Of a DNA stretch of 33,619 bases, positions 1 through 33,619 are shown piece by piece. The DNA is taken from the IMG/VR virus record IMGVR_UViG_3300028706_000024, positions 1-33,619 of that record; one strand, given 5' to 3'. Source of the DNA: a virus. Both the position numbers and the translations under genes were made by a program. The stretch's first letter is position 1, and every line of letters begins with the position of its first letter. The notes below the pieces were generated by a model. The model saw only the letters and a program-made list of their open reading frames with translations. It was not told the origin of the DNA and searched no databases.

Positions 1-2
1 AA

Positions 3-53
3 ATCCATGACACTTACGGAATTGAATTACATTACGATTCATCTATCCAATAG
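3..53 (+). CDS. Major capsid protein, 3' fragment (rest at right end)
   Basis: This is the last 16 codons plus the TAG stop of the major capsid gene, whose full copy is at 32692-33534. It reads through the contig joint. The only difference is ACT (Thr) at codon 12-14 here against TCT (Ser) in the right copy. It is a product of linearising a circle, not a second gene. Confidence 0.93.
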   Translation: MHDTYGIELHYDSSIQ

Positions 54-63
54 TATGATACTT

Positions 64-89
64 TGTGAGGGCGAGAAATCGCCCTTACA
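64..89 (+). terminator. Strong GAAA-tetraloop hairpin after capsid gene
   Basis: Eleven bases (64-74) pair with 79-89 around a GAAA loop at 75-78, with one G-U pair; the core is GGGCGA/TCGCCC. It starts 10 bases after the capsid stop and precedes the ribosome site of the next gene. No T-run follows, so it may be a partial terminator, a processing site or a 3' stabiliser of the abundant capsid message. The same hairpin is at 33545-33570 in the right copy. Confidence 0.7.
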
Positions 90-112
90 TCAAAATTAAA
101 TAGGAGAATAAA

Positions 113-352
113 ATGGTTAAATTAGTATTATCAAATCAAAAAATGATTACCTTAACTAGAGGTAACAAAACAATTAAAAGAACTGAAATAGATTACGAAA
201 CAAATAAAGTTATGTATGATTTTAGAGGTTTTAAAGTTACATCTAATGATGTACAAGAGAATATTAACGAGGTTGATAAGACCTATGAAAATGAAGCAAA
301 AGTAATACCTCTTAAAAAGAGAACAAAAAAAAGAAAGAAAAAAGATGAATAA
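113..352 (+). CDS. Small basic-tailed protein downstream of major capsid
   Basis: This is a 79-residue protein I do not recognise. It begins with a short beta-like stretch (MVKLVLSNQKMITLTRG) and ends in a strongly basic tail of Lys and Arg (residues about 68-77). A GGAG site at 103-106 fits the ATG at 113. It lies between the capsid gene and the first connector gene, where small decoration or head-accessory proteins are often found, so a virion role is possible. That is position-based inference only. The next gene starts inside its last codons. Confidence 0.7.
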   Translation: MVKLVLSNQKMITLTRGNKTIKRTEIDYETNKVMYDFRGFKVTSNDVQENINEVDKTYENEAKVIPLKKRTKKRKKKDE

Positions 353-6493: not shown

Positions 6494-9351
6494 TGGGAGT
6501 ATTAAGTTCTGTTGTAGGTTGGGTAACTAAAACAGTTTTAAACATGAATCCAATAGTAGGTTTAGTTATTAGTGTTGCGTTAGCTTGGTTAATGCGACCT
6601 AAAGTTCCTGAAATGCCAGACTTTGGAACTAATGATTTTGATAATTACGAAAAAGGTATCTTATTAAATAAACAATCTAATGACGCAAATATTCCTGTAA
6701 TCTATGGAACAAGAATGATTGGTGGAACTAGAGTCTTTATGGAAACTTCAGGTACAGATAACACCCATTTATATATGGCAATAATTTTATCAGAAGGAGA
6801 AATAAACGATATAACTTCAATTAAAATAGATGATAAAACTGTAACATGGTCAGGCGATCTATCAGATAATACACAAAGAACAGTAGGAAGTGGAGATAGT
6901 AATTTTTATAAAGATTCAGCAAGTTTAATTACAGTAGAACCTCATTATGGAACTGATGGACAATCTGCATCATCATTATTATCAACATTATCTAGTTGGG
7001 GAAGTACACATAAACTATCAGGTCTTTCTTATTTAGCTTTAAAATTTACTTGGAACGCAGACGCATTTACAGGAATACCAAAGGTTCAATCAATAGTACA
7101 AGGAAAAAAAGTTGTTGCTTATAATTCAAGTTCAGTTGCACAAACTGCTACATATTCAGATAATCCAGCTTGGTGTTTATTAGATTATTTAACAAACGAA
7201 AGATATGGAAAAGGTTTAGCAATAGCAAATATTGATATACCAAGTTTTTATACTGCTTCAGGAATTTGTGATACAGATGTTACAGCTTATGGTTCAACTA
7301 CAATAGATGTTATGGATTGTAATGCCATTATAGACACATCAAGTCCTGTTATAGATAATGTTAGAGAATTTTTAAAAGGTTGTAGAGGTTATTTACCTTA
7401 TGTTTCAGGAAAATATAAATTAATTTGTGAAACAACAGGCTCATCATCAATAACAGTTACAGAAGATGATATTATAGGTGGTTATACTTTATCAAGTCCA
7501 ACAAAAAATTCAAAATATAATAGAGTAATTATTTCTTATGTTAATCCAGCAAGAAACTATCAAGTTGATGAAGTACAATTTCCTGAAATAGATGATAGTG
7601 GTTATACCTCAGCAGATAGACACGCAACTATGAAAACTGCTGATGGGGATATATTATTAGAGGGAAGATTTGACATGAAAACATTGACTTCGCCATACCA
7701 AAGTTTGGAGATGGCAGAGGTTATATTAAGAAGATCAAGAGAAGCATTAGGTTTAACAATCAATGTTAGCTTTAGTGCTTATGATGTAGCAATAGGAGAT
7801 ATTTTAGGAGTAACACATTCTAGTTTAGGATTTTCAAACAAACAATTTAGAGTATTAGGAATTAATTTTAATGCAGATTTTACATTAGGTTTAGACTTAA
7901 TGGAACACCAAGACGCACATTATACTTGGGCAACTAAAACACAAGTATCATCAACTCCATCTACTAATTTACCTAACCCTTATACTATCCAACCACCAGC
8001 TAGTGTTACTTTAGATGATGAATTAATTGAATATAATGATGGAACTGTAATTGTAGCTTTAAATGTAACTGTTGGTGCAAGTACAGATAAATTTGTGGAC
8101 TATTACCAAGTGGAATATAAATTAAGTACAGATTCAGATTATATTATTTATGCACAAGGTTCAGGATTAATTCATAGAGTTTTAAATGTTATTGACCAAA
8201 AAATTTATAATGTAAGAGTTAAAGCTGTCAACTCTATGGGTGTATCATCAACTTATGTAACAGCAACTAGAACTATTGTAGGTGCTATTGATCCACCCTC
8301 AGATGTTGATGATTTTGCTTGTAATATTTTAGGACAAGAAGCACATTTAAGCTGGACACAAGTAGCAGATTTAGATTTAGCTTATTATCAAATTAGATAT
8401 TCTTCTGTAACAGATGGAACAGGAGATTGGGCAAACTCTGTATCTTTAGTTGAAAAAGTATCAAGACCAGCAACTTCAATTAATGTACCAGCTAGAGTTG
8501 GAACTTATTTAATTAAAGCAGTAGATAAATTAGGAAACTTTAGTTCTAACGCAACAGGTATTATTTCTAATGTTACATCAATTCAAAATTTTAATGCAAT
8601 AACATCAGTATCAGAACACCCAGATTTTGATGGAACACTAACAAATACAGCAATAGTAGATGATACTTTAAGATTAGATTCATCAGAATTATTTGATTCA
8701 GCTAGTGGAAATTTTGATGCAGAAACAACTAGATTTTTTGATTCAGGTGTTGCTAATGCAGATTTTTATGCAAGTGGTAATTATTTATTTGCAGATGTAG
8801 TTGATATAGGTGCTAAACATACTTGCCGACTTACAGCTAGTTTGAAACAAACTTCATCTGACCCTGATGATTTATTTGATAATAGAAGTGGTAATTTTGA
8901 TTCTGCTTCTGGTGCATTTGATGGAGATACACCATCTAATTCTAACGCACATATTGAGATTGCAACAAGTGATGATAACTCTACATACACAGCTTTTCAG
9001 AACTTTGTTATAGGAAATTACACAGCAAGATATTTTAAATTTAGAGTTATTTTAACTTCAACCGATTTAGCTTCAACTCCTGTTGTAGAAGAAGTGTCAG
9101 TTACAATAGATATGGAAGATAGAATATTTAGTGGAAATGATATAACTTCTGGTGCTGGTGCTAAAACTGTTACATTTACAAACCCTTATAAAACTGATAA
9201 TTATGCAGTTGGAATTACAGGACAAGGAATGGCAACAGGAGATTTCTTTTTAGTAGATACAAAAACTATTAATGGATTTAATGTAACCTTTAAAAATTCA
9301 AGTGGAACATCAGTATCAAAAGTATTTGATTATATTGCAAAAGGGTATTAA
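6493..9351 (+). CDS. Central tail-tip / host-specificity protein (J-like)
   Basis: This is a 952-residue protein. A hydrophobic segment at about 16-36 is followed by NDANIPVIYGTRMIGGTRVF and LSEGEINDITSIKIDD, the signature of lambda J / phage-tail_3 tip proteins. Two fibronectin-III-like domains lie near residues 500-600 and 600-700 (PPASVTLDDE and PPSDVDDFA starts). Further on are two related segments, FDSASGNFDAETTRFFDSG and FDNRSGNFDSASGAFDGD, then a C-terminal beta domain. It forms the tip that contacts the cell. It starts on the previous gene's stop. Confidence 0.85.
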   Translation: MGVLSSVVGWVTKTVLNMNPIVGLVISVALAWLMRPKVPEMPDFGTNDFDNYEKGILLNKQSNDANIPVIYGTRMIGGTRVFMETSGTDNTHLYMAIILSEGEINDITSIKIDDKTVTWSGDLSDNTQRTVGSGDSNFYKDSASLITVEPHYGTDGQSASSLLSTLSSWGSTHKLSGLSYLALKFTWNADAFTGIPKVQSIVQGKKVVAYNSSSVAQTATYSDNPAWCLLDYLTNERYGKGLAIANIDIPSFYTASGICDTDVTAYGSTTIDVMDCNAIIDTSSPVIDNVREFLKGCRGYLPYVSGKYKLICETTGSSSITVTEDDIIGGYTLSSPTKNSKYNRVIISYVNPARNYQVDEVQFPEIDDSGYTSADRHATMKTADGDILLEGRFDMKTLTSPYQSLEMAEVILRRSREALGLTINVSFSAYDVAIGDILGVTHSSLGFSNKQFRVLGINFNADFTLGLDLMEHQDAHYTWATKTQVSSTPSTNLPNPYTIQPPASVTLDDELIEYNDGTVIVALNVTVGASTDKFVDYYQVEYKLSTDSDYIIYAQGSGLIHRVLNVIDQKIYNVRVKAVNSMGVSSTYVTATRTIVGAIDPPSDVDDFACNILGQEAHLSWTQVADLDLAYYQIRYSSVTDGTGDWANSVSLVEKVSRPATSINVPARVGTYLIKAVDKLGNFSSNATGIISNVTSIQNFNAITSVSEHPDFDGTLTNTAIVDDTLRLDSSELFDSASGNFDAETTRFFDSGVANADFYASGNYLFADVVDIGAKHTCRLTASLKQTSSDPDDLFDNRSGNFDSASGAFDGDTPSNSNAHIEIATSDDNSTYTAFQNFVIGNYTARYFKFRVILTSTDLASTPVVEEVSVTIDMEDRIFSGNDITSGAGAKTVTFTNPYKTDNYAVGITGQGMATGDFFLVDTKTINGFNVTFKNSSGTSVSKVFDYIAKGY

Positions 9352-9371: not shown

Positions 9372-10403
9372 ATGGCACAGCACGATTATAACATAGCTAA
9401 CGATTCATTTCCAACAGTAAGAACAGATATAAATAATGTTTTATCTGCAATAAATACATCTAACTCTGGTACATCAAGACCAAGTGGTGCTGTTGCTGGT
9501 ACGATTTGGCTAGACACTTCTGGTGGTGCAACTGCTCATGTTTTAAAATTTTTTGATGGAACTGATGATATTACTTTAGGAACAATTAATACAACAGCTA
9601 ACACAGTTGATTGGACAGACAGTTCAGTTACTTTTGATATAGTGAATGATACCTCTCCACAACTAGGTGGTCAATTAGATGTTAATGGTAATGCTATTGG
9701 AGATGGTACTTTAGAATTATTAAAATTTTCAGAAACAGGAAGTGCAGTTAATGAATTTACAATCGCAAATGCAGCAACTGGTGCTGGCCCAACTTTATCT
9801 GCAACTGGTACTGATACAAATGTTGATATTAATATAACTCCTAAAGGAACAGGAGATGTCGTTCTTGCTGGAGATACAGCTAAAGTAGGAGATAGTGGTG
9901 CGGCAGCAACTCTAACTTCAAATGGTGCTGGAACTTTAACAGTAACAACAGGTGGAGCAAACGATTTAATTTTAAATACAAATAGTGGAACTAACTCTGG
10001 AACAATTCAAATTACAGATGGAGCAAATGGAGCAATAGATTTTACAACAAATGGAACAGGAGCAATTAAATTTAATGATATGGCTTATGTTCCACAACAA
10101 GCAATTACATCATCATCAAATGCAGTAGCATGGGACGCACAAGCAAAATCAAACGCAGTACATATCACTACGGAGAACACTACATTTTCTGCACCAAGTA
10201 ATGGAGTAGAGGGTGCTTTTATTTGTTTAGAAATTAATTATAACGGAGCGCACACTATTGCTTGGAACACAGTATTTGAATTTGCGGCAAGTACAGAACC
10301 TACTACAACAGACACAGATGCAAAAACTGACATTTTTGTCTTTAGATACAATGGAGCAATTTGGCAAGAAGTTGGTAGAACATTAAATTTAAGTGAAAGT
10401 TAA
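9372..10403 (+). CDS. Tail fibre-like protein
   Basis: This is a 343-residue protein directly after the J-like gene. The N-terminus (HDYNIANDSFPTVRTDINNVLSAI, then PSGAVAGTIWLDTSGG) is a common start of marine-phage fibre proteins and probably anchors to the tip. The middle is a Gly/Thr/Asn-rich repeat region (TPKGTGDVVLAGDTAKVGD and similar), suggesting a trimeric beta-fibre. The C-terminus (about 255-343) is a compact head domain. There are no charged clusters or signal peptide. Its receptor is unknown. Confidence 0.75.
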   Translation: MAQHDYNIANDSFPTVRTDINNVLSAINTSNSGTSRPSGAVAGTIWLDTSGGATAHVLKFFDGTDDITLGTINTTANTVDWTDSSVTFDIVNDTSPQLGGQLDVNGNAIGDGTLELLKFSETGSAVNEFTIANAATGAGPTLSATGTDTNVDINITPKGTGDVVLAGDTAKVGDSGAAATLTSNGAGTLTVTTGGANDLILNTNSGTNSGTIQITDGANGAIDFTTNGTGAIKFNDMAYVPQQAITSSSNAVAWDAQAKSNAVHITTENTTFSAPSNGVEGAFICLEINYNGAHTIAWNTVFEFAASTEPTTTDTDAKTDIFVFRYNGAIWQEVGRTLNLSES

Positions 10404-13561: not shown

Positions 13562-14044
13562 ATGCAACTTTCAAAAAATTTTTCTTTAGAGGAGATGGAA
13601 AAATCAAGTACAGGAATTAGACTCGGTATAAAAAATAAAGCTGGTAGTGGAGAGATTAAAAATCTAGGAGATATTTGTCATGAAATATTAGAAAAATGTC
13701 GTGCTAAATTTGATGATAAAGCTGTTACGATTACTAGCGGATTTAGGTCAGAAGAATTATGTGAAGCAATAGGTTCAAAAAAAACATCACAACACGCAAA
13801 AGGAGAAGCAGTAGATTTTGAAATAGCTGGTGTATCTAATCTTGAAGTAGCTTTATGGATTCAAAACCATTGTGATTTTGACCAATTAATTTTAGAGTAT
13901 TATACAGGCGAAGCAAATAGTGGTTGGATTCATGTTTCATATTCAGAGGGTTCTAATAGAAAACAAGTATTAACATTTGATGGAAAATCATATACTAATG
14001 GATTACCAGATACTAAATGGTCTGGTGGAAAGTTAAGAAATTAA
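13562..14044 (+). CDS. Endolysin, M15-family peptidase
   Basis: This is a 160-residue, one-domain peptidoglycan peptidase. The zinc site is visible: SQHAKGEAVD gives H78 and D85, and the third ligand is H124 in WIHVS; E112 in LILEYY is the likely catalytic base. SGFRS at 59-63 is the conserved substrate loop. Family members cut D-Ala or L-Ala/D-Glu bonds of the stem peptide. There is no signal peptide, so it needs a holin for release; two candidates follow downstream. AGGAGA at 13551-13556 supports the start. Confidence 0.9.
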   Translation: MQLSKNFSLEEMEKSSTGIRLGIKNKAGSGEIKNLGDICHEILEKCRAKFDDKAVTITSGFRSEELCEAIGSKKTSQHAKGEAVDFEIAGVSNLEVALWIQNHCDFDQLILEYYTGEANSGWIHVSYSEGSNRKQVLTFDGKSYTNGLPDTKWSGGKLRN

Positions 14045-14056
14045 AATGAAAAACAA

Positions 14057-14248
14057 ATGAGCAAAACAGCTTTACAAAAAATAGAATCACACGAAAAGCT
14101 ATGTCGTATCATGCAGAAATTAACCCATCAAAAAATTAGTCTTATAGAAGAAAGAGTTAAGAGATTAGAAAAGATTTTACTAATCTGCACAGGCTCATTA
14201 ATAAGTGCTATGGGTTATGTAATAGTAACTTTGCTTGATAAAGTCTAA
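14057..14248 (+). CDS. Small membrane protein, XhlA-like holin candidate
   Basis: This is a 63-residue protein. An amphipathic, coiled-coil N-terminal part (residues 1-38, ending IEERVKRLEKI) leads into one C-terminal membrane segment (LLICTGSLISAMGYVIVTLL) and a short basic end. This is the layout of XhlA-type holin or holin-accessory proteins, and it directly follows the endolysin. The ribosome site is weak. It could instead anchor or regulate a different holin such as the product of 15322. Confidence 0.55.
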   Translation: MSKTALQKIESHEKLCRIMQKLTHQKISLIEERVKRLEKILLICTGSLISAMGYVIVTLLDKV

Positions 14249-15321: not shown

Positions 15322-15687
15322 ATGTGGTTAGCTTTATTAAAAAATCCTCTGACAAAAATGGTGTTCAACAAGGCTACCGAACATTTTAAACATAAAGCAG
15401 AAAAAGTTAAGACTATTAGACAAGCTGAAATAGAGGCCTGTAAAGAAGTTGATGTTCAAAGAATTAAATCACAAGATAAATCATTTAAAGATGAGATATT
15501 ATTAATTTGGCTTGTAGGAATGTTGACTACTGGGTTTTTTGAAAGCACAAGAGATAACTTTAGAGCATGGGTAGAGATTATTAATGATTTACCTGATTCA
15601 GTATGGTACTTGTTAATTATAGTATTCACAGCAACATTCTCAACTAAAATGACAGATAAGGTTTTAAACCGAAACAAAAAGAAGTAA
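15322..15687 (+). CDS. Holin-like membrane protein
   Basis: This is a 121-residue protein. A charged helical N-terminus (residues 14-55, HKAEKVKTIRQAEIEA) is followed by SFKDEILLIWLVGMLTTGFF as membrane segment 1 (58-73), a loop with WVEIINDLPDSVWY, membrane segment 2 (94-107) and a basic tail. This resembles the holin group of phages and gene transfer agents with KDE before the first segment and a Trp/Pro loop before the second. It lies 1.3 kb past the endolysin. It is a better holin candidate than the product of 14057, though both may act. Confidence 0.6.
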   Translation: MWLALLKNPLTKMVFNKATEHFKHKAEKVKTIRQAEIEACKEVDVQRIKSQDKSFKDEILLIWLVGMLTTGFFESTRDNFRAWVEIINDLPDSVWYLLIIVFTATFSTKMTDKVLNRNKKK

Positions 15688-18495: not shown

Positions 18496-18774
18496 TTAGT
18501 TAAGTACACTATGACCTCTCTTTGTTAAACATTTTCTAGTAATAGACTCGTATTTTGTGTCCATAGTTGGGCTTAAAGACCAATAAACAATATTGCCAAC
18601 AAAAGTAGTATTTTCTTTTGCAAGTGTTTTACAATGTTGAGTATCGTTAGTTATTTCTCTAGCCTGATCTGTGTTAAAAGTTCCTGACCTACCACTCGTA
18701 TCTATTAAGGGTTTATACGCACACGCAGATAATAGGGTGCAAGAGATCGCTAGGGTAAGTATCATTTTTTTCAT
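18496..18774 (-). CDS. Small lipoprotein
   Basis: This is a 92-residue protein with a lipoprotein signal: MKKMILTLAISCTLLSAC, lipobox LSAC with Cys 18. The mature 75 residues start AYKPLIDTSGRSGTFNTDQAR and have further Cys at about 48 and 82, which may pair in the periplasm. Aspartate is not at position +2, so transport to the outer membrane is expected by the E. coli rule. Phage lipoproteins expressed early often block reinfection; that role is inference. GAGAGGAT lies before the ATG. Confidence 0.72.
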   Translation of the reverse strand: MKKMILTLAISCTLLSACAYKPLIDTSGRSGTFNTDQAREITNDTQHCKTLAKENTTFVGNIVYWSLSPTMDTKYESITRKCLTKRGHSVLN

Positions 18775-19122: not shown

Positions 19123-19382
19123 TAATACTCCTCTCTATAAAAATCTTCTTGATTTTCTGATTTTATTCCATGAATATTTGATTGATATAAAATATATTGA
19201 TTATCATCAAAATTTTCATAGTGGTGTTTTGCATCTATTAAGGCAGTTTTTTTTGTATAAACTCCCTCATCAAAAGTAATTAACATTGAAGATGCTTCAT
19301 TATTAATTATACCTTTTTTAATATCTTTAGGTAATTGGTTAAAAGATAAATTTTCTTTAATAACTTTTATAACTTCTTTCAT
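19122..19382 (-). CDS. Unknown small protein
   Basis: The ATG at 19382 with GGAG seven bases upstream gives 86 residues starting MKEVIKVIKENLSFNQL; a longer frame to 19523 crosses the peptide gene at 19382-19477 and lacks a ribosome site. The protein is mixed-charge with an acidic end and no membrane segment. No family is recognised. Its start overlaps the stop of the membrane peptide (TAATG), so it is coupled to it. Confidence 0.58.
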   Translation of the reverse strand: MKEVIKVIKENLSFNQLPKDIKKGIINNEASSMLITFDEGVYTKKTALIDAKHHYENFDDNQYILYQSNIHGIKSENQEDFYREEY

Positions 19383-19477
19383 TATATACTCCAAACGTGT
19401 AAGCAACCTAACATGATTGCAGTTAAACTTAATACTGAAAAAGTAAAACCTAAAGTGTAGTATGCTATTTTTTTCAT
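19382..19477 (-). CDS. 31-residue membrane or lipo-peptide
   Basis: AAGGAGAG precedes the ATG at 19477 by eight bases. The peptide starts MKKIAYYTLGFTFSVLSLTA, continues IMLGCLHVWSI and ends at 19382 overlapping the next start. MLGC is a weak lipobox (Met at -3), so it is either a very short lipoprotein or a membrane peptide. Both ends are coupled to neighbours by TAATG, which supports translation. Confidence 0.5.
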   Translation of the reverse strand: MKKIAYYTLGFTFSVLSLTAIMLGCLHVWSI

Positions 19478-21936: not shown

Positions 21937-22221
21937 ATGGTCAGAAAAAAGTCAAAATTTAGACACATTTCAATTTCTAACAAGAAGTACTACTTTTATG
22001 AGATTAAATGGTATGACATTCTAGGAGATTCAGGCCATGCTGGAATTAAAGAATTTGATTTAATGAAACCAGCTTTAATGACAACTACAGGATATGTCTA
22101 TTCTAAAGATAATAAACATTTAAAAACATTTGCTAGTTATGATGAGAATGAAGAATCTTTTAGTGATAGAAATGTCTTTCCTATTGGTTGCATAAAAGAG
22201 ATGAAAAAATTGGAGATATAA
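21937..22221 (+). CDS. Conserved-looking small phage protein, unknown
   Basis: This is a 94-residue protein with a distinctive sequence: YYFYEIKWYDILGDSGHAG, EFDLMKPALMTTTGYVY, LKTFASYDENEESFSDRNV and FPIGCI. I recall very similar proteins from other marine phages with D-x-x-GDSGHA and FSDRNVFP blocks but no assigned function. There is no membrane segment. It overlaps the ParB-methyltransferase gene by TAATG, so the pair may act together. Confidence 0.65.
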   Translation: MVRKKSKFRHISISNKKYYFYEIKWYDILGDSGHAGIKEFDLMKPALMTTTGYVYSKDNKHLKTFASYDENEESFSDRNVFPIGCIKEMKKLEI

Positions 22222-23405
22222 TGAAAATAGAAACAGCCGATATAAATACTATAAAACCTTATGAGAACAATCCGAGAAAATTAAAAGATTCAGCTATTGA
22301 TAAAGTTGCCATGTCTTTAAAAGAATATGGCTTTAGACAGCCTATTGTAGTTGATAAAGATAGAATTATTGTTGTAGGCCACACTAGGTATAGAGCCTCT
22401 AAAAAATTAGGCTATAAAGAAGTACCAATAACTATTGCTGATAATCTCACACCTGAACAGATAAACGCATATAGAATAGCTGATAATAGAACTGCTGAAG
22501 AATCTGAGTGGGATAGTGAATTACTTAAAATGGAAATAAAAGATTTAGAGGATAAAGACTTTAAATTAGATTTATTAGGTTTTAACGAAGATCAATTAAA
22601 CGATATATTATTCGAGGAAAAACAAGGTTTAACTGATGAAGATGCAGTTCCTGAAGCACCTGAAGAACCTATAACTAAACTAGGAGATATTTGGAAACTT
22701 GGTAATCATAGAGTTATGTGTGGGGATAGCACTAAAGAAGATGATGTTAAAAAACTTATAAATAATAACAAGATAGATTTAATCTATACCGACCCACCTT
22801 ATGGAATTAATGAATCAGGCAATAGAGTAGGAAGAGGAAATTTAGGAAATTCTAATAGTAAAATTATAGCTAAAGGTGTTGTTTATAAAGATTTTAAAGA
22901 TGACACAATAGATTATGCAATAGAAGCATATAATATTGTAGAGGGAGTTTTAAATATACCAAGACAAGTATGGTGGGGTGCTAATTATTATTGTCATTCT
23001 TTACCACAATCAAATAATTGGTTTGTATGGGATAAACGAACAGAAGATAAATATAAAAATACTAATTCTGATGCAGAAATGGCATGGGTTAAATCAAAAT
23101 GGTCATCAATTAGAGTATTTAGACATTTATGGATGGGACTAGTAAAAGGGTCAGAGCATGGTCAAAAAAGAGTTCATCCTACTCAAAAACCAGTTGCATT
23201 AGCAGAATGGAGTTTTGATTATTTTAGAGAATTTGATAGTGTGTTAGACTTATTTGGTGGTAGTGGTTCAACATTAATTGCTTCTGAAAAAAAAAATAAA
23301 AAATGTTATATGATGGAGTTTGAACCTCATTATGTAGATGTTATTATTAAAAGATGGGAAGATTTTACAGGCTTAAAAGCAGAATTGGAAAATGGACAAA
23401 ATTAA
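22221..23405 (+). CDS. ParB-like domain fused to DNA adenine methyltransferase
   Basis: The ATG at 22221 with GGAG upstream gives 394 residues; a TTG at 22188 is less likely. Residues 1-130 are a ParB/Srx-type domain (NNPRKL, IVVGHTRYRAS at 50-60). Residues 150-390 are a methyltransferase with TDPPYG (DPPY at 191-194), HPTQKP (319-324) and the S-adenosylmethionine loop LDLFGGSGST (342-351), i.e. motif IV before motif I (beta class). It probably methylates adenine, or cytosine-N4, protecting phage DNA or marking it before packaging. The TerS-like gene follows. Confidence 0.85.
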   Translation: MKIETADINTIKPYENNPRKLKDSAIDKVAMSLKEYGFRQPIVVDKDRIIVVGHTRYRASKKLGYKEVPITIADNLTPEQINAYRIADNRTAEESEWDSELLKMEIKDLEDKDFKLDLLGFNEDQLNDILFEEKQGLTDEDAVPEAPEEPITKLGDIWKLGNHRVMCGDSTKEDDVKKLINNNKIDLIYTDPPYGINESGNRVGRGNLGNSNSKIIAKGVVYKDFKDDTIDYAIEAYNIVEGVLNIPRQVWWGANYYCHSLPQSNNWFVWDKRTEDKYKNTNSDAEMAWVKSKWSSIRVFRHLWMGLVKGSEHGQKRVHPTQKPVALAEWSFDYFREFDSVLDLFGGSGSTLIASEKKNKKCYMMEFEPHYVDVIIKRWEDFTGLKAELENGQN

Positions 23406-23784
23406 GGCAAATACAACAGAAAAAAGGCAAGGTGCTGGAAGACCTAAAATAGTGGTTGATATAGAAATCTTAAAGAATCTAGCATCTATTGGCTGTCCAG
23501 ACTATGAAATTGCTAGTGTTTTAAATATATCAGCTAAAACACTTAAACGAAATTATGCAGATATTGTAGAGCAGTTTAAAGAAAAGGGAAAAGCTAGTTT
23601 AAGAAAGAAGATGTGGGATAAAGCTGTTAAGAAAGATAATACTCATATGCAGATATGGTTAAGTAAAAACTATCTAGGTATGAAAGATAGAACACAAACC
23701 GAGTCTATTGTTGAGCCTTTACCATTAATTATAGAAGCTAAAGCAGAAGAAGTAAAAGACTTGAATGGCAAAGAAAAAGGGTAA
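23392..23784 (+). CDS. Small terminase subunit-like DNA-binding protein
   Basis: This is a 130-residue protein. GAGRPKIVVDIEIL leads to a helix-turn-helix (ASIGCPDYEIASVLNISAKTL, in parts residues 30-52), then EKGKASLRKKMWDKAVKKDN and MQIWLSKNYLGMKDR. The last segment is typical of TerS-like proteins that select DNA for packaging. It overlaps the methyltransferase gene by 14 bases. Unusually it lies about 3.2 kb before TerL, with the exported-protein cassette between them. Confidence 0.76.
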   Translation: MDKIKANTTEKRQGAGRPKIVVDIEILKNLASIGCPDYEIASVLNISAKTLKRNYADIVEQFKEKGKASLRKKMWDKAVKKDNTHMQIWLSKNYLGMKDRTQTESIVEPLPLIIEAKAEEVKDLNGKEKG

Positions 23785-24302: not shown

Positions 24303-24926
24303 ATGAATTATTATTTTACAGGGATATTAGTAGTTTTATTTTGTTTGTTAGCATTTATTAAACCAGCATATCCTGATAGTACACAAACAAATACATCAGG
24401 CTCAAATACATCTATTGAGGGTGGATATACCTCAGAATCTAGTACAACCTATCAATCAGGTTCATCATCAAGCACTACATCAAACTCTACTAATCATTCT
24501 AATGTTAAGTCTGCACCACCAACTGCGTCAGCACCATCTTTTTCTGCTCAATCACAAGATGTTTGTGCAACAGGAGTATCAGTAGGTATTCAAACATTTG
24601 GTACAGGCTTTTCAGGTGGTAAAACAAACAGAGATATGAACTGTGAAAGAATTAAATTAGCAAAAGTATTATATGACTTTGGAATGAAAGTAGGAAGTGT
24701 GGCTTTATTGTGTCAAGATGAACGAGTCTTTGAGGCTATGATTAATGCTGGAACTCCATGCCCTGTAGATGGAAAGATTGGTAAAGAAGCACTAGCAATA
24801 TGGAATAAATATGAATTTGAAAGACCAGATTATGAAACTTATGTAAAACGAATTAAAAAAAGAGAAAAGATTGATAAGAGGATTAATAAAGCAGAAGCTA
24901 AAAAATTAGAACTACACACTAAATGA
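24303..24926 (+). CDS. Secreted protein with Ser/Thr linker and Cys domain
   Basis: The ATG at 24303 has GAGG at 24293-24296, better placed than for an ATG at 24291; it gives 207 residues. MNYYFTGILVVLFCLLAFIK is a signal peptide, followed by a Ser/Thr/Gly-rich linker (about 26-85), then a domain with four Cys (88, 114, 137, 153) including GFSGGKTNRDMNCERIKLA and LLCQDERVFEAMINAGTPC. The end is a charged helix. I recall this Cys domain from other marine phages without a known role. It opens the exported cassette. Confidence 0.68.
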   Translation: MNYYFTGILVVLFCLLAFIKPAYPDSTQTNTSGSNTSIEGGYTSESSTTYQSGSSSSTTSNSTNHSNVKSAPPTASAPSFSAQSQDVCATGVSVGIQTFGTGFSGGKTNRDMNCERIKLAKVLYDFGMKVGSVALLCQDERVFEAMINAGTPCPVDGKIGKEALAIWNKYEFERPDYETYVKRIKKREKIDKRINKAEAKKLELHTK

Positions 24927-25108
24927 CAAGAAAAACTAATACAATGTTAATAGGTTTACTAGGTACAATTCTATTAGGTTTAGCAACATGGACATTAGTT
25001 ACATTAATGGAATTACAAATTTTAGTTAATATGATACAACAAGATTTAATAAGTATTGATAAACAATTTGGTAGAGTTTATAATTTTATAGATTCAGTAA
25101 GGCAATAA
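24923..25108 (+). CDS. Small membrane protein of exported cassette
   Basis: This is a 61-residue protein. A short basic N-terminus is followed by one membrane segment (MLIGLLGTILLGLATWTLVT) and a helical tail (LQILVNMIQQDLISIDKQF) that should lie in the periplasm by the positive-inside rule. It overlaps the genes on both sides (ATGA at 24923, TAATG at 25106). It resembles a spanin- or holin-accessory layout but shows no diagnostic motif. Confidence 0.6.
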   Translation: MTRKTNTMLIGLLGTILLGLATWTLVTLMELQILVNMIQQDLISIDKQFGRVYNFIDSVRQ

Positions 25109-25218
25109 TGATTTGGATAATAACAATAATAATAGGATTTGCATATGCGAATTATCTTTCTAATAAGTGGGCTGATGCTCTTAACCCTTACAACTTCTTT
25201 AGCAGAAACAACAAATAA
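25108..25218 (+). CDS. 36-residue membrane peptide
   Basis: The start overlaps the previous stop (TAATG). It starts MIWIITIIIGFAYANYLSNK, a short hydrophobic segment, and has a polar end. It overlaps the signal-peptide region of the next gene by 74 bases in another frame, which makes one of the two frames constrained by the other. It may only serve to bring ribosomes to the gene at 25145, or be a real membrane peptide. Confidence 0.42.
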   Translation: MIWIITIIIGFAYANYLSNKWADALNPYNFFSRNNK

Positions 25219-26452
25219 TTTAGTTTCACAAGATTTTACTTCTGGTTGGTCAGGCACAAACATAAATACTAAACATGGTAATAGTACAATAGCTGGAGTA
25301 AATGGTAAGTATGTAGAATCTGATAGTATTTCTTTAAATGATTCTAATGTAAATAAAGGTTCACTAAACAACGGATTTGAAATAATAGGTTCATCAGAAG
25401 TTTGGTTTTGGAATAATAATTCACAATCAGTTACACAAACTATTAAAACAACAGACGATAGTGGAAATATATTAACACAGAATAGAATATTATCAGGGAA
25501 TTGTGCTACCTTTAATGGTTGTGGTTATGGCACTATGACAGATACTATGATATTTAATTCTAATACTGCTCAAGATTATGATGTTAGTTTAAAATATGAA
25601 TTTTCTGTTCCTAATACTACAGGACACTATGGTGCTGATTTAAAAAACCCATCACTTATTATTGATTATACCTATTCTCCAGATATAGAAGAATTAGTAG
25701 AGCAAGAATTAATTGATTTATTTACTGAGTTTAAACCAGAAGAAGATTTACAATTTGAAGAAAAGTTTGAAGTTATAGAATTTTTTAATGAGCCTATGAC
25801 TATGGAATTAGTGGAAGAAGAAATAGAGATCAAAGAATTTATTGAGATAATAACTATGCCTGAAAAAGAGCCTGAGATTATAGAAGAAATGCCTGAAGCT
25901 GTAAAAGAAATTATTGAAGAAAAGCCAGAAGAAGAAGTTATCACAGAAGAAATAATTAAAGAGGCTAAAGAGGAAATGCCAGAAGAAATAATTGAGGAAG
26001 AACCAGAGCAGATTGCAGAAGAAACTAAAGAGGAAGAAGTTATTGAGGAAGCACCACAAGAAGCTAAAGAAGAAGCACCTAAAGAAGAAGTTAAAACAAA
26101 AGTAGTAAGTAAGAAAACTAAAAAGCCAAAGATAGATAAGATTATGGCCAAAGTAGATGCCCAGATAAAAGATAGTGCTAAGAACTTGACTATTAAAAAC
26201 ATAATAAAACTAGATGCTATGCAAAGCGATCAGGCTTCATTAGTAGCTTATAATAATGTGGAGTTTTACAAGCCTAAAGATATTTATTTGAAACAGATCG
26301 AGATATTTGATAATAGGTCTATATATGCAAATGTTGATTTAGTTAAATATACTGCTAATGATATAATGGAAGTTAAGATTAAAAAACTAAATGAAATTAA
26401 GTCAAAGAAAAGACTATTACTTTTAGAATTACAGGAGTTGAAGAATGGTTAA
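25145..26452 (+). CDS. Large secreted protein with Glu-rich spacer
   Basis: The ATG at 25145, with AGGA at 25134-25137, gives 435 residues; a TTG at 25139 is less likely. Residues 1-20 are a signal peptide (cleavage after TTSLA). Residues 21-177 form a beta-rich domain with C120 and C126 (QDFTSGWSG, YEFSVPNTTGHYG), lectin-like in style. Residues 181-316 are extremely Glu-rich with spaced Pro (EEKPEEEVITEE). Residues 317-435 are basic and helical. A Glu/Pro spacer like this could cross the periplasm. Function unknown. Long Ser-rich antisense frames are shadows. Confidence 0.65.
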   Translation: MRIIFLISGLMLLTLTTSLAETTNNLVSQDFTSGWSGTNINTKHGNSTIAGVNGKYVESDSISLNDSNVNKGSLNNGFEIIGSSEVWFWNNNSQSVTQTIKTTDDSGNILTQNRILSGNCATFNGCGYGTMTDTMIFNSNTAQDYDVSLKYEFSVPNTTGHYGADLKNPSLIIDYTYSPDIEELVEQELIDLFTEFKPEEDLQFEEKFEVIEFFNEPMTMELVEEEIEIKEFIEIITMPEKEPEIIEEMPEAVKEIIEEKPEEEVITEEIIKEAKEEMPEEIIEEEPEQIAEETKEEEVIEEAPQEAKEEAPKEEVKTKVVSKKTKKPKIDKIMAKVDAQIKDSAKNLTIKNIIKLDAMQSDQASLVAYNNVEFYKPKDIYLKQIEIFDNRSIYANVDLVKYTANDIMEVKIKKLNEIKSKKRLLLLELQELKNG

Positions 26453-26819
26453 TGAAATAAAGAAAAATCTTACAAATATTGTTGTAGTTATTGGGCTTAT
26501 ATCTTCAATAGGTGTAGGATTTAGTAAGTTTGCAAAAATGGAATTAAGAGTTAATCAATTAACGGAAGCCTCAAAGTCAATAGATATTGCGTCAGTTGAA
26601 TTAGTAGAATCTAATAGACTAGCAATAGAAACTAATGGATTTACAATAACAGATAACAACACAGATATTGCTGTGATTAAAGAGAAACTTAAAACACATG
26701 GTCATAATAACGATCATGTTCATGATAATTCTGCTATTAAAATATTACAAAAAGAAATAGAAGTTTTAAAGTTAGAGATACAAGAGTTAAAAGAATCATC
26801 TAAAAACCCATTAAGCTAA
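26445..26819 (+). CDS. Membrane-anchored coiled-coil protein
   Basis: This is a 124-residue protein. An N-terminal membrane segment (IVVVIGLISSIGVGF, about 12-26) is followed by helical stretches, a His-rich bit HGHNNDHVHD at about 85-94 that might bind metal, and a coiled-coil end (ILQKEIEVLKLEIQELKES). It overlaps the previous gene by eight bases and the next by one. The layout (short inside end, long outside coil) is like an inner-membrane spanin, but the lysis genes are elsewhere. Confidence 0.6.
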   Translation: MVNEIKKNLTNIVVVIGLISSIGVGFSKFAKMELRVNQLTEASKSIDIASVELVESNRLAIETNGFTITDNNTDIAVIKEKLKTHGHNNDHVHDNSAIKILQKEIEVLKLEIQELKESSKNPLS

Positions 26820-27040
26820 TGAAATTTATATTAGCTTATGCAATATGTTCTGCAATTACAGGAATGTGTAATACTCCTGTAGTACATGATAAAGTTTATA
26901 ATTCATGGACAGAATGTACCAAAGCTGGTGCAGTTGCAACAATTCAAGTAACTAATAAACTTGAAGAAAAATTTAACAAGGAAAAATTATATATTACTTA
27001 TTTCTGTAATGAAAATAACCCTGACAAAACCCCAACTTAA
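26819..27040 (+). CDS. Small exported Cys protein
   Basis: This is a 73-residue protein with a short hydrophobic start (MKFILAYAICSAITGMC) and Cys at 10, 17, 33 and 63. VHDKVYNSWTECTKAGAVA and LYITYFCNEN resemble small proteins I recall from other marine phages. The hydrophobic part is short for a signal peptide, so export is probable but not certain. It overlaps the TerL gene by 32 bases and closes the cassette. Confidence 0.58.
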   Translation: MKFILAYAICSAITGMCNTPVVHDKVYNSWTECTKAGAVATIQVTNKLEEKFNKEKLYITYFCNENNPDKTPT

Positions 27041-28244
27041 AGTATCATCTAGTCAAGCAAGATTTAGAGTTCTTATAAGTGGTCGTAGATTTGGTAAAAC
27101 ATATCTTTGTATAACAGAGATGATGAAATATGCATCACAACCAAATCAAAAAATATGGTATGTAGCACCAACATTTAAAATGGCTAAAGAGATTGCATGG
27201 GCTAGTCTTAAAGAATTATTAAATCAATTTAATTGGATAGAAGATATTAACGAAACCACTATGACTATCACAGTTAGAAAATCTAATAGTACAATCTCAT
27301 TAAAAGGTGCTGATAACTATGACTCATTAAGAGGTAGTGGATTAAACTTTTTAATATTAGATGAATTTGCAGATATAGATAAACGAGCATGGTTTGAAGT
27401 TTTACGTGCTAGTGTTAGTGATACACTTGGAAGTGTTTTAATGTGTGGAACTCCTAAAGGCTATGGAAATTGGTCTTATGAAATGTATCTTAAAGGTAAG
27501 CAAGATGATGAATGGGATAGTTACCAATTCACTACTGTTCAAGGTGGAATGGTTACAAAAGAAGAAATAGAACAAGCTAAACAAGACATAGATATAAGAA
27601 CTTTTAGACAAGAGTTTGAGGGTACATTTGAAAATTATGCTGGAAGTGTTTATTATAATTTCCACCCTGTAGATAATGTTGTTAAACGACAGATAGATTG
27701 GGAAAAGCCTTTACATATTGGCATGGACTTTAACGTTGATCCAATGAGTGCTTGTGTTGGACAGATAGAAAAAGATAAAATTTATTTTTTAGATGAAGTA
27801 GTCATTTATTCAAGTAATACTGACGAAATGTGTCAAGAATTACGAGATAGATATGGAACAAAGATTCCTATATTTATATATCCTGACCCAGCTTCAAGAC
27901 AAAGAAAAACATCTGCTGGTGGAAGAACTGATTTATCTATTTTACAAAATGCTGGATTTAAAGTTAAAGTAAAATTTAAACACCCAGCGATACGAGATAG
28001 AGTTAATGCAGTTAATTCTAAACTCAAAGATTCTAATGGGGTTAGGCATATTTTTGTTTCACATTCTTGCAAAACATTGATAAAAGGTTTACAAAGACAA
28101 ATATATAAGGAGAATACAAATATTCCTGATAAGGAAGATGGATTCGATCATATGAATGATGCTTTAGGTTACATGATTGATTATTTAAAACCATTAACTA
28201 CTCAGAGTATTTATTCTAAACCGACAAGATGGGCAATTAAATAG
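27009..28244 (+). CDS. terL: Large terminase subunit (TerL)
   Basis: The ATG at 27009 gives 411 residues; a TTG at 26961 would add 16 atypical residues. Neither has a clear ribosome site. ATPase motifs: Walker A SGRRFGKTY (24-32), Walker B LNFLILDEFAD (112-122), coupling GTP (147-149). Nuclease motifs: D240 in HIGMDFNVDP, YPDPA (291-295), and D380/D384 in DHMNDALGYMID. It packages DNA into the head and cuts it. The sequence type suits headful packaging, consistent with a circularly permuted contig, but that is not proven. Confidence 0.93.
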   Translation: MKITLTKPQLKVSSSQARFRVLISGRRFGKTYLCITEMMKYASQPNQKIWYVAPTFKMAKEIAWASLKELLNQFNWIEDINETTMTITVRKSNSTISLKGADNYDSLRGSGLNFLILDEFADIDKRAWFEVLRASVSDTLGSVLMCGTPKGYGNWSYEMYLKGKQDDEWDSYQFTTVQGGMVTKEEIEQAKQDIDIRTFRQEFEGTFENYAGSVYYNFHPVDNVVKRQIDWEKPLHIGMDFNVDPMSACVGQIEKDKIYFLDEVVIYSSNTDEMCQELRDRYGTKIPIFIYPDPASRQRKTSAGGRTDLSILQNAGFKVKVKFKHPAIRDRVNAVNSKLKDSNGVRHIFVSHSCKTLIKGLQRQIYKENTNIPDKEDGFDHMNDALGYMIDYLKPLTTQSIYSKPTRWAIK

Positions 28245-32691: not shown

Positions 32692-33534
32692 ATGGCAAAC
32701 GAAAGCACAAGTTCTACACTATCGGAACTATACACAGAGATAGTAGCAGAAGCTCAATTCGTAGCATCTGAAAAATCCATCATGAGAAACTTAGTTAAAA
32801 ACTATGCGATCACAGGTGGTGGAAAAGCAGTTGAAGTTCCTGTCTATGCACAAGTTAGTGCGGCGGCAGTAGCAGAAGCAACTGATCTTTCTAACACAGC
32901 AATCAACCCAACATCTGTTACTATTACAGCATCAGAAGTTGGTGTTATGACTACTCTAACTGATTTAGCAAGAAACTCAGCACCAAGAAATGTTGCTGGA
33001 GATATTGGTAAATTGTTTGGAGAGGGATTAGCAAGAAAACAAGACGCAGATTTAACTGTATTGTTTGATGGCTTTTCAACTGCATTAGGAGATGGCACAG
33101 GTGCTATTTCTCCAGCTGTAATCTTTAATGCTCTTTCAACTTTAAGAGCAAGTTCTTTACCGACTAATGAATGTGCAGTTGTTCTACACCCTAAAATCGC
33201 TTATGACCTAAAATCTGGCATGACTAATACTTTTGCTGGTTTAGACACAGAAAGTTCTAACGAAGCACTAAGATCAGGCTTTGTTGGTAAATTAGCTGGT
33301 ATGAATGTATTTGAAACTTCAAATTTAGCAAATACAGGAACAGCTGGTGATTACAAAGGTGGTGCGTTCCACAAAGACGCATTAGCAATCGCTATGATGC
33401 AAGATGTTAAAGTGGAAACTCAAAGAGATGCTTCTCTTAGAGCAGACGAAATCGTTGCAACTTCTGTATATGGTGTTGGAGAAATCCATGACTCTTACGG
33501 AATTGAATTACATTACGATTCATCTATCCAATAG
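32692..33534 (+). CDS. Major capsid protein (HK97 fold)
   Basis: This is a 280-residue protein with capsid features: an N-terminal arm (SELYTEIVAEAQFVASEKS), VEVPVYAQVSAAAVAEATD, a spine helix region (VAGDIGKLFGEGLARKQDADL), AVVLHPKIAYDLKSG and a C-terminal beta part (FHKDALAIAMMQDVKVE). It has no N-terminal delta domain, in keeping with the separate scaffold gene. AGGAT at 32681-32685 lies before the ATG. A hairpin follows the stop. The last 53 bases are repeated at the left end. Confidence 0.9.
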   Translation: MANESTSSTLSELYTEIVAEAQFVASEKSIMRNLVKNYAITGGGKAVEVPVYAQVSAAAVAEATDLSNTAINPTSVTITASEVGVMTTLTDLARNSAPRNVAGDIGKLFGEGLARKQDADLTVLFDGFSTALGDGTGAISPAVIFNALSTLRASSLPTNECAVVLHPKIAYDLKSGMTNTFAGLDTESSNEALRSGFVGKLAGMNVFETSNLANTGTAGDYKGGAFHKDALAIAMMQDVKVETQRDASLRADEIVATSVYGVGEIHDSYGIELHYDSSIQ

Positions 33535-33544
33535 TATGATACTT

Positions 33545-33570
33545 TGTGAGGGCGAGAAATCGCCCTTACA
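33545..33570 (+). terminator. Right copy of capsid-gene hairpin
   Basis: This is the same 11-bp stem with GAAA loop as at 64-89, inside the right copy of the terminal redundancy. It is one site on the circular genome, not two. Confidence 0.7.
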
Positions 33571-33593
33571 TCAAAATTAAATAGGAGAATAAA

Positions 33594-33619
33594 ATGGTTA
33601 AATTAGTATTATCAAATCA
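33594..33619 (+). CDS. 5' fragment of the small gene at 113-352
   Basis: The first 26 bases of the small basic-tailed gene reappear here in the right copy of the redundancy. It is cut by the contig end and is not an independent gene; the complete reading is at 113-352. Confidence 0.93.

Follow-up and report, generated by a model that had tools for sequence, protein, structure and literature searches.

An exported and membrane protein cassette between the terminase genes of a pelagiphage-type genome: a candidate envelope-spanning lysis module

What does a run of overlapping genes for exported and membrane proteins do between the two terminase genes of a phage? The question is raised by an IMG/VR virus record (IMGVR_UViG_3300028706_000024), which was analysed over its full length of 33,619 nucleotides and is referred to here as the window. 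The ends of the window (1–130 and 33490–33619) repeat one another over about 120 bases, and it is therefore probably a complete, permuted genome, although it is classed as linear. Judged by its gene order and by gene A of the cassette, which is 87% identical to that of Pelagibacter phage HTVC202P, it is a pelagiphage-type genome related to this phage.

All six frames of a preliminary description of this DNA are present where it had placed them, and profile searches bear out its assignment of the flanking genes, with the terminase small subunit gene (terS, 23392..23784; PHROG terminase small subunit, E = 7.9e-8) upstream and the terminase large subunit gene (terL, 27009..28244; PHROG E = 1.8e-46, Pfam Terminase_6C/6N) downstream. 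All eight genes lie on the plus strand. The six frames encode, in order, A (24303..24926), an exported protein with four invariant cysteines (PHROG 20531, E = 1e-11); TM1 (24923..25108), an accessory 61-residue single-span membrane protein (PHROG 33111, E = 2e-37); TM2 (25108..25218), a 36-residue membrane peptide that is kept in relatives; B (25145..26452), an exported protein with a head, an acidic Glu/Pro spacer and a helical tail, as delineated with AlphaFold2, Foldseek and VIA; C (26445..26819), in which hydropathy and heptad pattern indicate a membrane anchor and a coiled coil, together with a His-rich stretch and a terminal NPL; and D (26819..27040), an accessory 73-residue exported Cys protein (PHROG 19893, E = 1.6e-20). 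The junctions had been described as ATGA or TAATG overlaps throughout, which holds for A/TM1 (ATGA) and for TM1/TM2 and C/D (TAATG); B and C overlap by 8 nt and D and terL by 32 nt, and the TM2/B overlap exceeds the description, with B starting inside TM2 in a different frame and overlapping it by 74 nt. This last overlap is retained in all 11 sequences that were read (the window and ten close relatives), among which two sequence variants of both frames occur. In the HTVC202P record TM2 and D are unannotated, and the start of B is probably annotated too late, an upstream start (MQYIVSILLLM) lying inside TM2 as in the window (the positions concerned are 8008–8038 and 9674–9892 of locus L096).

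Scanning IMG/VR with a profile of A gave matches in at least 599 stretches, with relatives of A encoded in at least 598, and 80 loci were kept. B is present in 70 of 90 loci with A; in 18 of the 20 others the sequence stops no more than 661 bases from A, and the remaining two are divergent forms. The order A, B, C is found nearly everywhere that it can be read, with C always following B on the same strand, and its carriers include siphophage, podophage, T7-like and myophage genomes. Named carriers of A are HTVC202P, HTVC023P, HTVC033P, Baldr, HTVC115P, the myophage Mosig, the T7-like S28-C10, the roseophage CRP-207 and the spring-water ctXG6705. A further 20 loci with A lie in MAGs, marine and other, of varied assignment; many of them also have B and C, or else exported and membrane-coil proteins that are divergent but keep the order. 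These loci may be phage contigs binned with bacteria. The recurrence of A–B–C, with its order unchanged, across dozens of loci, and not as scattered homologues, places the cassette far beyond chance. Of the six-gene unit originally proposed, A–B–C is the part that is conserved; TM1, TM2 and D are accessory, being gained and lost (TM1 is absent from HTVC202P, and D is found in 32 phage records and is common in pelagiphages). In one locus (L087) A–B–C is surrounded by radical-SAM-like genes of a 328-kb viral contig, and no lysis gene was recognised in its vicinity.

By hydropathy, 88 of 89 A proteins have an N-terminal export or anchor segment, as do 68 of 70 B proteins and 54 of 58 C proteins. 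In A the signal segment is followed by an S/T/N-rich linker and then by a domain with four cysteines (C88, C114, C137 and C153), which are invariant among 51 sequences; no fold is claimed for A, because the confidence of its AlphaFold2 model is low (mean pLDDT 54). C is composed of an N-terminal TM segment, a coiled coil and often a His-rich stretch, and its C-terminal NPL is invariant (36/36). The charges flanking the TM segment are ambiguous, and the coiled coil is taken to be periplasmic. PDB sequence-profile searches with A and B gave no match, Pfam and NCBIfam searches gave no function for the cassette proteins, the PHROGs that cover A, TM1 and D are all of unknown function, and PADLOC gave no match to a known anti-phage defence system; the earlier remark that no named system has this make-up thus agrees with the curated libraries, which give no family of known function.

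B can be divided into a head (residues ~19–178), the acidic spacer (~180–330) and a conserved helical tail (330–435). The AlphaFold2 model of the head is a β-sandwich with a pLDDT of about 80–90 over most of its length, and the predicted fold (Foldseek, VIA) matches sugar-binding domains (Fbs1 with a Z-score of 13.4, CBM16 with one of about 11) as well as phage tailspike modules. As modelled, the head is a CBM-type β-sandwich and carbohydrate-binding-like; the sequence match of B to CBM_4_9 is only weak (3/43). The spacer, with 54 Glu in 151 residues and a net charge of −39, is disordered. Pairwise identities among 59 complete loci gave a Mantel r of 0.90 between A and the last 105 residues of B, of 0.71 between A and C and of 0.65 between the B tail and C, and of only 0.33 between the B head and A and 0.34 between the B head and its own tail. 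In sequence terms, A co-evolves with the B tail, and the B head is exchanged between lineages; the window and locus L011, for example, are 93% identical in A and 99% in the B tail, with 27–37% identity in the B head. At least 12 classes of head can be distinguished at 55% identity. The export signals, the invariant order and the co-evolution of A with the B tail uphold the proposal of one envelope-acting unit.

The position between terS and terL, which had been regarded as odd, is not so, because T7 keeps its spanins there, in the order TerS (18), Rz/Rz1 (18.5/18.7) and TerL (19), and in the relatives HTVC111P, HTVC026P and HTVC112P this slot is filled by other small membrane genes. In the T7-like S28-C10 the order is XhlA-like, holin-like, A, B, C, two small genes and terL, so that the cassette lies between the holin-like gene and TerL, the zone of Rz/Rz1 in T7. 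Lysis-type genes were counted as 3TM holin-like genes or peptidoglycan hydrolases (M15, lysozyme, amidase and GH19). After dereplication at 90% A identity, 14 of 36 loci have one at most two genes from the cassette, and after dereplication at 80% 7 of 21 do; the control figure is 13% of the genes in the window. Related loci do not count as independent events, and a single genome serves as a rough control, so that the count lends moderate support; most loci have no lysis gene inside the two-gene distance. The order 3TM holin–A–B–C occurs in Mosig (Pfam GTA_holin_3TM) and L102, M15 directly follows C in L041, L047, L062, L070 and HTVC023P, and L016 and L027 have the order holin–A..B–C–lysozyme; Pfam confirms M15_3, Phage_lysozyme and GTA_holin_3TM in example loci. 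In the window itself, about 10 kb separates the cassette from the endolysin and holin-like genes: on the plus strand there are a probable endolysin of the peptidase M15 type (13562..14044; Pfam M15_3, E = 3e-16), a coiled-coil protein with a C-terminal TM segment that is XhlA-like by layout (14057..14248; PHROG 38642, of unknown function) and a 3TM holin-like protein (15322..15687; phrog_2524). PHROGs gives no function for this small 3TM family, but homologues in two uvMED records are annotated as DUF3154, which we take to be the earlier name of the GTA_holin_3TM family. Phages also park unrelated envelope genes next to lysis genes.

The best explanation, to which we give a probability of roughly 0.4, is that A–B–C acts late in infection as an envelope-spanning lysis module in place of spanins and tethers the inner membrane to an envelope glycan. 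C would be held in the inner membrane by its anchor and extend its coiled coil into the periplasm, B would dock on A and C through its helical tail, the acidic spacer would span the periplasm, and the exchangeable head would grip an envelope glycan, which may be LPS or peptidoglycan; A, with its flexible linker and disulphide-type exported domain, would stabilize or locate the complex. After removal of the cell wall by holin and endolysin, the tether would draw the membranes together or tear the outer membrane. The analysis shows the genes, their export signals and order, the co-evolution of A with the B tail, the predicted fold of the head and the lysis genes nearby in many genomes, whereas topology, docking, ligand, late timing and the role in lysis are inferred. 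Expression would then be expected to be late; the published transcriptomes are those of HTVC027P and HTVC022P, neither of which is among the A matches in the phage collection. A survey of spanins found about 13% of genomes without one, many of them marine, and discussed non-canonical routes (PMC6139136). If the lysis reading is correct, A–B–C would represent an unrecognised route for breaking the outer membrane, a step for which many marine phages have no known gene. It is conceivable, albeit doubtful, that spanin-less marine phages thereby possess a third, lipid-free class of outer-membrane disruptor, made of an inner-membrane coiled coil, a long acidic spacer and an exchangeable glycan-binding head.

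The likeness to the two-component spanins (lambda Rz/Rz1 and T7 18.5/18.7) lies in the position between terS and terL, shared with T7, in an overlapping-frame gene architecture (TM2/B) and in C, which has an N-terminal TM segment and a coiled coil as the inner-membrane subunit does, provided that the coil is periplasmic. In contrast, the window cassette has no linked outer-membrane lipoprotein subunit, its B protein is exported, soluble and large and bears a carbohydrate-binding-like head, and nothing in spanins corresponds to A. All frames were scanned for a lipobox with a simple motif and hydropathy rule, not a trained predictor; no credible spanin lipoprotein was found in the complete genomes of HTVC202P, Baldr, S28-C10 and HTVC111P, and the lipobox gene that a two-component spanin should have linked to the cassette was found in neither the window nor HTVC202P. 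As for a unimolecular spanin, A and B of the window have no lipobox, and a second TM-like segment is found in none of 70 B proteins. The window does encode a 92-residue lipoprotein with an LLSAC lipobox (18496–18774, minus strand) in a leftward operon unlinked to the cassette and with no PHROG match; HTVC202P yielded no such lipobox gene. In about ten other loci a mini-lipoprotein, with a Cys-containing mature part of about 35 residues, is encoded directly beside A (L055, 3400–3567; L058, 3314–3475; L032, 4756–4914; L071, 6334–6492; also L065, L074 and L075, among others) and is a possible outer-membrane partner. Lipobox-like motifs also occur in some of the B or A proteins, and such a motif or the mini-lipoprotein would suit an outer-membrane anchor in those lineages.

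The corresponding slot can also be occupied by E–D2, an unnamed pair present in more than 40 pelagiphage records (L092, 16517–17088; L094, 3918–4501; L095, 3835–4379), which consists of a TM coiled coil (in uvMED, 'fibrinogen-like coiled coil protein') and a small Cys protein and lies near the holin-like and terL genes in T7-like pelagiphages. E–D2 replaces A–B–C in HTVC111P and HTVC026P when these are compared with HTVC202P, and in the T7-like HTVC022P (XhlA-like, D, holin-like, E, D2, two small genes, terL) when it is compared with S28-C10. That one set takes the place of the other in two unrelated lineages suggests that A–B–C and E–D2 have a related role, although E–D2 is without an A-like or B-like protein and no sequence relation was detected; both are specific candidates in some of the most abundant ocean phages. 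In the phage collection A occurs in 9 records and E in 45, and both only in HTVC115P. Strict alternation of the two fails, as many IMG/VR loci carry both (24 loci with E). In HTVC112P the slot holds an XhlA-like gene, TM1 and a short frame, MNYYFTGGIIILFVLLTMLVAPL (at about 4540 of L093), that resembles the signal peptide of A and is possibly the relic of a lost cassette.

The chief rival, already named in the preliminary description, is superinfection exclusion or adsorption control, in which the exported head would coat or block surface glycans, much as the small outer-membrane lipoprotein Llp of T5 excludes superinfecting phages by blocking a protein receptor. Foreign phages would thus be kept from adsorbing, or else the phage's own progeny when they encounter debris, and head swapping would reflect competition among phages. 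Like Llp, B would be an exported phage protein acting at the host surface, although the parts of A–B–C show no similarity to Llp. An exported sugar-binding-like head of at least 12 classes exchanged among lineages would suit such a role, as would the finding that phages of one host, HTCC1062, carry both head classes. That head class matches host strain is unsupported, since these same-host phages carry different classes and host strain alone does not set the class. The B proteins of S28-C10 and HTVC033P are annotated 'putative carbohydrate binding domain containing protein', the name of the commonest annotated gene in the metaviromic islands of marine phages (PMC3909814), which is a further point for exclusion. 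It is opposed by the frequent position of the cassette beside lysis genes and in late-type operons, by a three-part complex whose inner-membrane coiled coil and long spacer exceed the needs of a simple blocker, and by the phage collection, in which the heads were found only in B proteins and none in tail fibres. The neighbourhood points more to lysis, and exclusion is held to be less likely; were it correct, the cassette would amount to a modular system of surface competition with swappable heads, and to a widespread one.

Control of lysis timing or lysis inhibition, in which A and C would sense the state of the envelope and hold or trigger the holin without any disruption of the outer membrane, would explain the holin-like gene immediately upstream of A in several loci, and an exported Cys domain with a membrane coiled coil would suit an antiholin-type regulator. 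However, such a regulator has no need for a carbohydrate-binding-like head or a 150-residue spacer, and searches of PHROGs, Pfam and NCBIfam found no similarity to known antiholins, which makes this reading improbable. More improbable still is a virion component, an accessory fibre or decoration whose signal-like N-terminus is not used for export: the cassette of the window does lie inside a late packaging and head operon, and Mizuno and coworkers place such genes under host recognition (PMC3909814), but nearly all A, B and C proteins have a hydrophobic N-terminal signal or anchor, and Sec export is hard to reconcile with virion assembly in the cytoplasm. A TonB-like or other uptake or secretion helper was rejected as very improbable, and the nutrient uptake once suggested finds no support, because, despite an acidic, Pro-containing spacer resembling that of TonB and one divergent locus annotated 'transport protein tonB', the domain order is reversed, with the anchor on C and the head of B coming first, and no TonB domain is matched by Pfam in B or 42 relatives or by NCBIfam in B.

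Two features lie outside the cassette of the window. Upstream of terS, a ParB-like domain is fused to a DNA methyltransferase (22188–23405), and a 31-residue hydrophobic peptide ending in LTAIMLGCLHVWSI is encoded on the minus strand (19382–19477) and is kept, unannotated, in HTVC202P and HTVC111P.
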